DNA of 64,000 bases, taken from assembly GCA_903879715.1 (NCBI GenBank), contig CAIRMR010000005.1, positions 1-64,000 of the forward strand. The letters are read 5' to 3'. The DNA is from an uncultured Bacteroidales bacterium. GTDB taxonomy: Bacteria; Bacteroidota; Bacteroidia; Bacteroidales; UBA4417. The notes below the pieces were generated by a model that made no database searches, was not told the origin of the DNA, and was given only the letters and a program-made list of their open reading frames with translations. This document shows positions 17,246 to 61,113 of the stretch, in pieces (within the stretch, counting starts at the first letter, position 1; every line of letters begins with the position of its first letter). A program made the position numbers and the translations under genes.

Positions 17246-18403
17246 ATGCTTAAAATTGTAACCGTAGTTGGCGCAAGGCCCCAGATTATTAAAGCTGCTG
17301 CTTTGAGCCGCGCTATCCGGAATTCATTTTCTGATCAGATAGAAGAAATCATAATACATACCGGGCAACATTACGATGCCAATATGTCGCAGGTGTTTTT
17401 TGAGGAACTTGGCATCCCAAACCCACATATTAACCTTAATATCGGCTCGGCTTCGCATGGCAAGCAAACAGCGCAGATGATACAGGAAATTGAAAAGGTT
17501 TTACTGGCCGAAAAGCCTGATTATATTGTCCTGTTTGGCGATACCAATTCGACCCTGGCAGGAGCCATTGCTGCAAGCAAAATTCATATTCCGATTGTAC
17601 ACATTGAAGCAGGTTTACGCTCGTTTAACAAGAGCATGCCAGAGGAAATCAACCGCATTATGTGCGACCACGCCTCTACCCTATTGTTTGTTCCTACTGA
17701 AACCGGGGTAAAAAACCTGCAAAAAGAAGGCTTTAAAACAGGCACTTCAGCGCCTTATACTTCCGATCATCCGGGAGTCTTTCATTGCGGTGATATTATG
17801 TTCGATAACCTGGTATATTTTTCGGAAATGGCCGGACAAAAAACTGATATCATGCAAACGCTGAATCTGAAAGAGAATGAATTTGTACTCTGCACTATTC
17901 ACCGCGACAATAACACCGATTCGCCGGAACGCCTGAACGCGATTATAAGTGCCATGTGTTATATCGAGGAAAACCTGCATTTAAAGATTGTTATTCCTTT
18001 GCATCCGCGTACTTCAAAGATTATTGAAAGCAAATTGCCCAAAGATTTATATCACAGGTTAAATGGCAACAAGAACATCCATCTTATTCCGCCCGTTTCC
18101 TACCTCGAAATGATTATGCTTGAGAAAAACTCCTGCCTTATTCTTTCTGATTCAGGAGGAGTGCAGAAAGAAGCATATTTCTTCCATAAACCTTTAGTTG
18201 TGGCCCGCCCTGAAACCGAATGGATCGAAATTATCGAAAACGGTGCTGGCATAATTGCGGATGCGGATGAACTCAAAATCATTGAATCTGTGAAGTATTT
18301 TATGGAAGCAGGCCAGCTTGATTTCCCGAATGTATTTGGCGACGGACACGCGGCTGAATTTATCTGCAGAACGATGTTGGAACAGAGAACGATTACGGCT
18401 TGA
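17246..18403 (+). CDS. wecB: UDP-N-acetylglucosamine 2-epimerase (non-hydrolysing)
   Basis: A 385-residue enzyme that interconverts UDP-GlcNAc and UDP-ManNAc for surface polysaccharide synthesis. Signatures: GARPQIIKAAALSRAI near residue 9, HTGQHYD, HIEAGLRSFNKSMPEEINRI and SDSGGVQKEAYFFHKP, the two Rossmann-fold halves of the WecB family. Length is normal (370-390). It stands apart from a polysaccharide cluster here, between the palindromic repeat of radC and a broken GIY-YIG gene. Confidence 0.92.
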   Translation: MLKIVTVVGARPQIIKAAALSRAIRNSFSDQIEEIIIHTGQHYDANMSQVFFEELGIPNPHINLNIGSASHGKQTAQMIQEIEKVLLAEKPDYIVLFGDTNSTLAGAIAASKIHIPIVHIEAGLRSFNKSMPEEINRIMCDHASTLLFVPTETGVKNLQKEGFKTGTSAPYTSDHPGVFHCGDIMFDNLVYFSEMAGQKTDIMQTLNLKENEFVLCTIHRDNNTDSPERLNAIISAMCYIEENLHLKIVIPLHPRTSKIIESKLPKDLYHRLNGNKNIHLIPPVSYLEMIMLEKNSCLILSDSGGVQKEAYFFHKPLVVARPETEWIEIIENGAGIIADADELKIIESVKYFMEAGQLDFPNVFGDGHAAEFICRTMLEQRTITA

Positions 18404-18439
18404 GCATTTTCGGTCGGCAGTAATTGCAAAACGAATAAT

Positions 18440-18890
18440 ATGAAGACACGAAAAGAACTTAAAGAAGAATACAAACAGATAAAATATAAAATGGGTGTAT
18501 TCCAGATCAGGAATACAGTTACTGGCAAGATTTATATCGGCAGTAGCCTGGATTTAAAGGCAATATGGTTTACTCAGAAGCTACAACTCGAAATGGGAAC
18601 TCATCCGAACAGCGATTTGCAGAAAGACTGGAAAGAATATGGCCCGGAAAGTTTTATTTATGAAACGAGCCATGCCAATAATTTGTCTCACAGAGCGATG
18701 ATTATTTCCATGGCGAGTTCCATGTGACCCGTAAAAAATTAAAAAATAAACACATGAAATACTTGAGGAAATTCATGAAAGCGAAGCTAAGCCTTTAGAT
18801 TATAAGAAAGAAATCAAAGCTCTTGAACAAATGATTATTGAAGATTTACAACCTTTTGAAAACAAAGGATATAACCGAAAACCAAAATAA
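18440..18890 (+). pseudogene. GIY-YIG family protein gene split by a 94-bp element
   Basis: The left part (18440-18664) encodes a GIY-YIG N-terminus: EYKQIKYKMGVFQIRN, GKIYIGSS and HPNSDLQKDWKEYGPESFIYE. Translation then enters a 94-base inserted element and stops at TGA 18725-18727. After the element the frame resumes: EILEEIHESEAKPLDYKKE, then IKALEQMIIEDLQPFENKGY and NRKPK before TAA at 18888-18890. Joining the two at the duplicated ATGAAA restores SFIYEILEEI exactly, giving a protein of about 118 residues, as in intact Bacteroidota homologues I remember. The insert is 94 bases (94 mod 3 = 1), so it also shifts the frame. GIY-YIG proteins are small nuclease-like proteins, usually of unknown role. 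Confidence 0.88.
18660..18759. mobile_element. 94-bp hairpin repeat element, copy 1
   Basis: Bounded by ATGAAA at 18660-18665 and 18754-18759, consistent with a duplicated target. The unique part can fold: GCCATG pairs with CATGGC, and AATAAT with ATTATT, around an 18-base loop holding CTC/GAG. A 3' A/T-rich tail follows GTGACCCGT. The first about 70 bases are identical to the copy at 60583-60681; the tails differ. It carries no gene, so any mobility would need proteins from elsewhere. It interrupts the GIY-YIG gene at 18440. Confidence 0.8.
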
Positions 18891-32727: not shown

Positions 32728-33180
32728 CTAATCCCAAACATATCGTTCATCATATTCAACATTATATTCATTAAGGTATTTTCTGAATTCATTCTGAAAA
32801 TCTTTCTTTTTATGATGGTTATGTTGGTTCTCAATATAAGCAACGACTTTATTGACTTGTGCCGGATTAACAGAAAAGGCGCCATAGCCGTCTTGCCAGT
32901 AAAAGTTATTAAGAGATATATCTTTAGTTTTCATCCATTTCGATGAATGTGATTTAACTTCTTCAAGCAGTTTCATTAAAGCTATCTTTTTTGAGAGCAT
33001 GCAAAGTATATGCACATGATCGGTATAACCGCCTATTTTTATTGGATAACATTCGAGGTTGTTACATATTCCACCAAGGTAAGCATGAAGTTCCTGCTCA
33101 TATGGCGGATGAATGATCGGAGCGCGATATTTAGTGCTGAACACTATATGTAGGTAATTTTTAACCAGTGACTGGCCCAT
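32728..33180 (-). CDS. IS200/IS605-type Y1 transposase, RAYT-like
   Basis: A 150-residue HUH transposase. The metal-binding HUH motif is H55-V-H57 (GYTDHVHILCML) and the nucleophile Y115 lies in VVAYIENQHNHH with Q119. It carries no other IS gene, and REP-like palindromes lie right upstream (33206-33359), which fits a REP-associated tyrosine transposase (RAYT) rather than a full IS200. Reading frame is intact. Confidence 0.85.
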   Translation of the reverse strand: MGQSLVKNYLHIVFSTKYRAPIIHPPYEQELHAYLGGICNNLECYPIKIGGYTDHVHILCMLSKKIALMKLLEEVKSHSSKWMKTKDISLNNFYWQDGYGAFSVNPAQVNKVVAYIENQHNHHKKKDFQNEFRKYLNEYNVEYDERYVWD

Positions 33181-33205: not shown

Positions 33206-33359
33206 GCCTGATACGATGGACTGTGGCCATCGTTGATATATTACGCCCTTTCAGTGCTTTTTAGAGATTAGCCCTGAAAGGGCGTGATATCAGAACGAAG
33301 GGCTCAGCCTTTTGTTTATAAGGAACAGAGTCAGTCAAGCCCTGAAGGGGCGTAATAAA
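33206..33359. repeat. REP-like palindromes beside RAYT gene
   Basis: Three structures: CGATGG (33214-33219) with CCATCG (33227-33232); ACGCCCTTTCAG (33243-33254) with CTGAAAGGGCGT (33274-33285), extended by TGATAT on both sides; and AAGCCCTGAAGGGGCGTAAT (33337-33356), a single-strand match to the same motif. Short palindromes of this type are RAYT substrates in other bacteria. They separate the transposase from the GH20 gene. Confidence 0.8.
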
Positions 33360-60582: not shown

Positions 60583-60681
60583 ATGAAACGAGCCATGCCA
60601 ATAATTTGTCTCACAGAGCGATGATTATTTCCATGGCGAGTTCCATGTGACCCGTAAAAAAATAAATAATAACACATGAAA
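60583..60681. mobile_element. 94-bp hairpin repeat element, copy 2
   Basis: The same sequence as at 18660-18759 (identical from ATGAAACGAGCCATG through GTGACCCGTAAAAAA) with a different A/T-rich tail. It is flanked by ATGAAA at 60583-60588 and 60676-60681. It lies between the phospholipase-like gene and the outer-membrane gene at 61114, so disrupts nothing that I can name. Confidence 0.8.
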
Positions 60682-61113
60682 TAGTTGAACTAAATTATGA
60701 AAAAATATAAACAATGTGATTTGAAAATTGTTTCGCAAAAAGATTTCATGAGAAATCAGCGAATTAAGTTTGGTTCAGAGGAATAAAACTGCTCAGGCAT
60801 GCGTCAAAAAAATGCTTCGGGCGCAAGACATGGTTACTTTCATTTTGCAACCCTGGATTGTTGTTATTTGATTTAAATATTATTAATTAGAGCCAATTAC
60901 CAGTTTAATGAGACATAAATACTCATCATCATTTTCTTAGTTTATTTATATAATTCCGAAAAAGGATGAACAATAGTATCAGATATGTGTTTTCAAGAAT
61001 TATTTAAATAATTCACGAAAACACTTTACAAACCTTTTAATGAATTTTCCCATTTTACAAGGCGGTATCCGAAAAGCCTGAATAAGAGTAGGAACAATAA
61101 ATCCAATTAAAGT
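60682..61113. other. Intergenic region, 430 bases
   Basis: Holds a 29-codon open frame at 60697-60786 (MKKYKQCDLKIVSQKDFMRN...) that may be a small gene or a decayed remnant, and no clear promoter. Nothing else is recognised. Confidence 0.35.

Follow-up and report, generated by a model that had tools for sequence, protein, structure and literature searches.

The stretch of DNA analysed here (the window) comprises 64,000 nucleotides from an uncultured Bacteroidales bacterium and contains two closely similar hairpin-forming sequences, one of them within a gene. This raises the question whether such a sequence moves and, if so, how it finds its sites and what becomes of the genes at which it settles. 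The best explanation overall is probably that of a non-autonomous mobile DNA family of Bacteroidota that inserts at ATGAA and of which the surviving copies are concentrated at start codons. This position at start codons is the main new result. Compared with an earlier note on the same DNA, the start-codon preference, the phylum-wide spread, a second stem and one internal word complementary to both ends are new.

Two copies in the window and their target word

The features of the first copy and its host gene, and the location of the second copy, are as follows.

18440..18664, + strand: 5′ part of the interrupted host gene, GIY-YIG-like (intact protein of relative G003 against Pfam)
18660..18664, + strand: left ATGAA, the target copy, inside the host gene (single copy in G003)
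18665..18753, + strand: element body of copy 1 (sequence, BLAST, covariance model)
18669..18714, + strand: left-end hairpin with stem GCCATG/CATGGC (fold prediction)
18717..18724, + strand: internal guide-like word GTTCCATG, complementary to left ATGAAAC and right CATGAA with one mismatch or bulge
18721..18756, + strand: right-end hairpin with stem CATGTG/CACATG, right ATG included (fold prediction, alignment)
18733..18750, + strand: A-rich tail, candidate translation-initiation region (sequence)
18754..18758, + strand: right ATGAA (sequence, G003 alignment, right-end comparison)
18754..18890, + strand: 3′ part of the interrupted host gene (G003 alignment)
60583..60681, + strand: copy 2, with the left end of copy 1 and the tail of another subfamily

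Copy 1 (18660-18759) and copy 2 (60583-60681) have their first 79 bases in common and differ in the A/T-rich tail, as the earlier note had described, and a 30-base core pattern matches the window twice, against no match in 100 shuffles. Each copy has ATGAAA on both sides, neither contains a gene, and the nested hairpin claimed for them (GCCATG at 18669-18674 with CATGGC at 18709-18714) is present in fold predictions, with z-scores of -3.45 and -3.81 on the + strand. A second stem, missed by the earlier note, is predicted between CATGTG (18721-18726) and CACATG (18751-18756) and includes the right-hand ATG. The sequences around the two copies show no apparent relationship, so a longer duplicated segment does not account for them. 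Copy 2 has an ORF on the - strand (start 60541) on one side and an ORF on the + strand (61114) on the other. Shortly 5′ of the latter, at 61059-61094 (+), there is a match to the DUF805b cis-regulatory RNA (Rfam, 48.7 bits).

That the element has moved, as had been proposed from the reading frame of the host gene, is borne out by relatives in which this gene is intact. Window positions 17401-18665 align to positions 476-1726 of the G003 locus (L091), and the window from 18754 onward aligns from position 1721. The 6 bases of overlap read ATGAAA, which is present as a single copy in the uninterrupted G003 gene. In relative G009 the gene is uninterrupted at this site as well, with ATGAGA there. 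By sequence, the host gene at 18440 resembles a GIY-YIG nuclease gene, the intact G003 protein scoring 20.5 bits against GIY-YIG, just below the Pfam cut-off of 22.6. The left flank of copy 2 had no match in six relatives.

The earlier note named ATGAAA as the insertion site. The strong site preference stands, but the word itself is ATGAA, the right ends also reading ATGAAC, ATGAAT and ATGAAG. Since any of the four bases can follow ATGAA at the right end, the sixth base there is part of the flank; at the left end, the base after ATGAA is nearly always A, which is the first base of the element. The same note had offered site preference or terminal direct repeats. As ATGAA is single in element-free orthologues, it is the target and also part of the right end of the element. 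A phylum-wide set was collected from named genomes with an internal pattern that makes no use of the ends; 7 edge copies were dropped for the present count. ATGAA there stands at the expected distance on the left in 98 of 101 copies, on the right in 95 and on both sides in 92, whereas random windows gave 13% on the left and 9% on the right. Sequence comparison has shown that ATGAA is the insertion site and that a copy of it remains on each side of the element, and the view that it is mobile and gene-less with a strong site preference is supported.

The family and its position at start codons

Both window copies belong to a larger family. A whole-genome BLAST search gave 60 matches, and a covariance model gave 101 matches in the own genome at E up to 0.1, partial ones counted. 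As this model (R1) was used to score only 150 out of 4862 first-look candidates, the latter number may be a lower bound. The model was built on 41 copies picked by a pattern demanding ATGAAA at both ends, so that the own-genome set favours such ends, whereas the phylum-wide set is free of this preference. Three copies are identical over 100 bases at separate places in the genome. Without cassettes, a unit is roughly 85-105 bases long, and units occur singly or in head-to-tail arrays in which one ATGAA is common to each junction. Four left-end types were told apart by eye: ATGAAACGAGCC, ATGAAACGAACATGAC, ATGAAATAGCC and ATGAAATGAGCC. Several copies lie at contig ends, as is expected of repeats that break an assembly. 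A long autonomous version was not recognised among the own-genome matches, the fetched loci or 296 genomes, the last of these screened with a single pattern for right ends that are not accompanied by the usual left end. Some elements carry extra cassettes between the left-end hairpin and the guide word. These cassettes measure about 45-50 bases or multiples thereof, contain ACACCyKTAAAAATAAGC (L014, L015, L023, L033, L044 and others) and resemble the loop of the right-end hairpin.

To classify the positions in the own genome, 76 arrays were delimited, of which 22 were set aside because an end was not ATGAA and 2 because of edges. The right ATGAA was called a start codon when it opens a frame of at least 60 codons and the joined flanks give an in-frame stop at most 20 codons upstream. 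This holds for 28 of the remaining 52 arrays; 20 lie elsewhere, and 4 are open frames with longer upstream openings, which resemble signal-peptide starts but were left out of the start count. Under this rule, the ATGAAA words of the window, the four words of both window copies included, gave 16 start codons in 132 (Fisher p = 1e-8). Phylum-wide, the right ATGAA is a start codon in 40 of 67 elements, against 61 of 697 ATGAAA words (p = 1e-21); here each right end is counted once and 8 edge elements are set aside, an earlier figure of 42/74 having counted some elements twice. Of 133 ATGAAA words in the window, 88 lie inside genes, and 14 of the 45 outside are start codons. Against this background of words outside gene interiors, the excess at start codons is modest (28/51 versus 14/45, p = 0.02). 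The concentration is probably mostly a matter of survivorship, as insertion at a start codon leaves the protein unbroken. In these sequence comparisons, surviving copies were shown to be concentrated at ATGAA start codons, where the old start codon then opens a short frame in most copies and the right-hand ATGAA starts the intact gene.

The genes concerned could be named through orthologues in relatives, with or without the element. They include purA, encoding adenylosuccinate synthase (NCBIfam), and genes for glutamate formiminotransferase, a menaquinone-biosynthesis family protein, a WbqC-like protein (Pfam) and a POR subunit. In other genomes, genes at elements were read as gatC-, purE- and pfk-like, with only their first residues as evidence.

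A search in 15 relatives covered fifteen gene starts, 13 of which were compared in detail. For 11 of these 13 start-codon insertions, purA included, at least one relative has an element-free orthologue, and in 8 of the 11 genes the alignment of the left flank reaches the start codon unbroken. In 10 genes, ATGAAA is the opening of the element-free orthologue (C7_800 has one further orthologue with ATGAAG); in the eleventh gene, C40_14200, the G003 start reads ATGAGG. At this site, as at the window site in G009 (ATGAGA), the target word itself is different, which weakens these two comparisons. Two genes carry the element in every relative compared, namely the POR subunit gene (91% element identity in G003) and the menaquinone-type gene (94% in G003, 89% in G008), so the element can persist there through speciation. 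At two other genes, the own genome (G000) and G008 carry unlike elements (73% identity at formiminotransferase, 67% at purA) and G003 and G009 are empty, which suggests that these start codons were hit repeatedly. C40_14200 has a tandem in G000, the first unit of which closely matches the single element of G009 (L179); the second unit was therefore probably added at the right ATGAA of the first. G003 (L166) has neither C40_14200 element, though it is closer to G000 at the window locus than G009 is, and may have lost the element.

These orthologues also bear on the idea that the sequence is a conserved cis-regulatory RNA of Bacteroidota leaders that is mobile in appearance only. Such an RNA would likewise be found upstream of many genes, would fold and would covary. 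The element-free orthologues with exact joins contradict it, however, as do identical copies at different sites, one of them inside a gene, and the tandem arrays. Moreover, Rfam 15 gave no match to the element at the gathering score in the window, and none near it for the two copies. This reading is considered highly improbable.

The earlier note was reminded of retroelement tails by the A-rich tail, and RNA-mediated copying, as of a SINE-like retroelement, would indeed agree with a structured 5′ part followed by an A-rich 3′ part and with the orientation of the element on the strand of the gene at start codons. The tail variants are nevertheless shared subfamily modules. The tail of copy 2 (60583), AAAAAAATAAATAATAACAC, is the one usual for the ATGAAACGAACATGAC type (L030, L034, L035, L038, L040). 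As it occurs in another subfamily, it represents an exchanged module rather than a variable poly-A tail, and the comparison with retroelements finds no support in tails that are swapped between subfamilies of the same genome. In addition, both ends are fixed nearly to the base, the duplication is ATGAA, and the left ATGAA is kept in 98 of the 101 phylum-wide copies, although the pattern used, which needs the foot of the left hairpin, would miss strongly 5′-truncated copies. Copying through RNA is therefore regarded as very unlikely.

The internal word and candidate mobilising enzymes

Within the element, the word RTTCCATN is complementary to the left ATGAAAY, with one A.C mismatch, and to the right N′ATGAA. 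This was followed in 149 elements picked by a pattern in which ATGAA and TTCCAT are constant, which leaves only two variable positions to test the pairing. On the left, the Y-R pair (base 7 and the base before TTCCAT) is Watson-Crick in 135 of the 149 elements (T-A in 89, C-G in 46); on the right, the N-N′ pair (the base after CAT and the base before the right ATG) is so in 136 (C-G 62, G-C 58, A-T 16). Among 20 clusters at 75% identity, 15 are Watson-Crick on the left and 18 on the right, which was matched by 7 and 0 of 5000 shuffles, respectively. In an alignment of 41 rows, each helix has about 98% paired cells, far above slid versions. The two pairings are mutually exclusive, with a predicted mean occupancy over 148 elements of 0.32 for the left and 0.38 for the right. 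At the right end, guide word, hairpin and cleavage site follow the order known from IS200/IS605. The left ATGAA, only two to four bases away from the left stem, is complementary to a word that follows the left hairpin on its 3′ side. In the proposed mechanism, RTTCCATN would select the insertion site through base pairing to the ATGAA of each end and to that of the target.

A duplication of five bases could also point to a MITE of a DDE transposase with a preference for ATGAA, as the same 5 bases stand on both sides and are single in the element-free orthologues. Inside the duplication, though, there are no terminal inverted repeats, the body starting with ACGAGCC on the left and ending with ACAC on the right. 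The target is nearly always ATGAA, and a near-fixed target word is unusual for DDE duplications. The bases next to ATGAA, moreover, covary with the internal word in a single-strand pairing. A DDE transposase is thus an unlikely source of the element.

Cutting of a single strand by a candidate enzyme acting in trans fits the anatomy best. Such an enzyme would be a single-strand nuclease that recognises the folded strand, most likely of the HUH type as in IS200/IS605, whose non-autonomous derivatives are the PATEs/MITEs. The element resembles IS200/IS605 in having subterminal hairpins near both ends and no terminal inverted repeats, in being inserted 3′ of a fixed short word that is single in the empty site and has a matching word at the right end, and in the pairing of a short internal word with the cleavage site, in the known order at the right end. 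As described in PMC8266576 and PMC6006769, the cleavage sites of IS200/IS605 are chosen by guide words located 5′ of each end hairpin. In the element, by contrast, one common word serves both ends, and the partner of the left word lies 3′ of the left hairpin, so that the left end appears to depart from the usual IS200/IS605 layout. It further differs in its five-base ATGAA target used at start codons, and no tnpA-bearing relative was found.

The own genome contains 16 matches to PF01797 (Y1), which makes it possible that the element is of the REP type and is moved by a resident TnpA_REP/Y1 protein, a reading that is judged rather doubtful. Like the REP/BIME repeats that are mobilised in trans by TnpA_REP (RAYT), the element is small, palindromic, gene-less and multi-copy, with tens of copies and sometimes arrays. 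In addition, Bacteroidetes genes of subclass 2.6 are flanked by atypical hairpins according to an extract of PMC6006769. Corrected for genome size, element and Y1 counts are only weakly correlated (partial rho 0.31, p 0.03, 52 genomes); outside the genus, the plain rho is 0.26 (p 0.11, 39 genomes). The Y1 loci themselves speak against this origin. Besides the 16 own loci, 30 loci were taken from 13 other carriers (43 Y1 matches in 13 of 16 genomes, the Y1 ORF being located in 22 of the 30). Models of the left and right end, run on all 46 loci, detected no element end with an E-value under 0.4; 5 of the loci contain the short core TTCCATN(T/C)GA, with the rest of the element absent. No single Y1 subclass, as judged by motifs, is common to the element-bearing genomes, and some carriers have no Y1 match at all: G046 (7 elements), G053 (3), G067 (1), G070 (1) and G074 (5). 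The hallmark of REP/RAYT systems, a 5′ GT[AG]G (or CGTC) tetranucleotide at the foot of the hairpin, as described in passages of PMC6006769 and PMC3733652, is not present either. With about 100 bases and two stems, the element is also longer than REPs, and it sits at start codons.

Many of 14 own Y1 genes, inspected by eye with L054 and L058 left out, adjoin other palindromic or tandem repeats, which again argues against the REP reading. Several unrelated REP-like families were seen in the own genome, each beside a different Y1 gene (L053, L057, L059, L061). Within the window, a Y1 transposase-like gene lies at 32728-33180 (-), with REP-like palindromes AGCCCTGAAAGGGCG just upstream at 33270-33289 and 33338-33357. 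This gene and five others in the genome read, by their motifs, as subclass 1.2 of PMC6006769, for which the table in that source lists no associated repeat structures. Several of these six genes adjoin palindromic or tandem repeats.

The neighbourhood of the elements was considered as well. Among 614 clustered ORFs from the loci of the phylum-wide scan, no candidate mobiliser was found: the family present at most loci (8) resembles a sensor/response-regulator group, and the next widest (5 loci) represents one shared glutaminase-like segment. In L183, L208, L212, L263 and L284, from Chryseobacterium and Flavobacterium macacae, the element lies beside the near-identical end of a glutaminase-like gene, a context that was read for L183, L208 and L212. 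A longer segment seems to have been shared horizontally together with the element.

Candidate leader, spread and meaning for Bacteroidota

Insertion at a start codon places the A-rich tail directly before the gene. In the last 20 bases before the right ATG of the 149 elements, the fraction of A is 0.67 and that of G 0.04, against 0.40 and 0.11 at 51 native starts of the window. An excerpt of PMC6847099 describes Bacteroidota mRNAs as lacking Shine-Dalgarno sequences, with upstream bases and structure being important and extra AUGs avoided. Judged by its composition, the tail looks like a translation leader. Being A-rich and G-poor, it would offer a preformed leader to ribosomes that initiate independently of Shine-Dalgarno pairing, and genes such as purA would tolerate the element because the tail works in this way. 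An optimised, Kozak-like leader was considered too and fits only partly: the composition suits, but position -3 is C in the elements. In F. johnsoniae, A at -3 favours initiation, as stated in the same excerpt (PMC6847099). The right AUG is moreover predicted by folding to be largely paired (unpaired 0.22 on average), and together with the C at -3 this implies that the leader may lower expression.

The frame opened by the left ATG stops by codon 14 in 133 of the 149 elements. The short frames read Met-Lys-stop (88 elements), Met-Lys-Arg-Thr-stop or about 13 codons, and the early stop is TAG in one type and TGA in another, which hints at selection for an early stop of the left frame. A more specific and rather doubtful proposal is that of a phylum-wide element class specialised for start codons, in which the old start would yield a mini-ORF, a new start would come with its leader, and UUCCAU would pair with either the old or the new AUG as a two-state translational switch before a core gene.

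Other small elements are tolerated at genes as well. Rickettsia palindromic elements (RPEs) are small hairpin elements that insert in frame inside coding sequence, whereas the present element, which duplicates the start codon, does not enter the protein. Two of them, RPE-4 and RPE-6, are mentioned in PMC3733652. Group I introns, in the portion of PMC3984707 consulted, are likewise mobile, and their insertion can be neutral to the gene that receives it; they splice out of the RNA, whereas the element would remain in the transcript as a leader.

The family is widespread in the phylum. Model matches at E up to 0.001 were obtained in 30 of 59 genomes, the own genome included, and a scan of one genome per species gave at least 105 stretches; of the 80 with a title among the matches listed, 79 are named as Bacteroidota groups and one is a MAG called Chlorobiota. 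Isolates rich in copies include Arenibacter sp. P308M17, Winogradskyella flava and Niabella ginsengisoli. A pattern search of viral contigs gave no match, nor did a BLAST search of plasmids and phages with one copy. In the one paper collection searched, no described family was recognised as the ATGAA hairpin element.

Mobile DNA near genes usually breaks them. The element appears to avoid this, the start codon being both the target and restored, with a leader composition that suits ribosomes ignoring Shine-Dalgarno sequences. For annotation, this means that the left ATG before genes with the element at their start codon is not the protein start. The element also points to a candidate enzyme with a five-base target, perhaps set by base pairing. 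The natural paired alleles, with and without the element, lend themselves to the study of start-codon choice in Bacteroidota, and the element could explain the turnover of leaders before core genes in this phylum.
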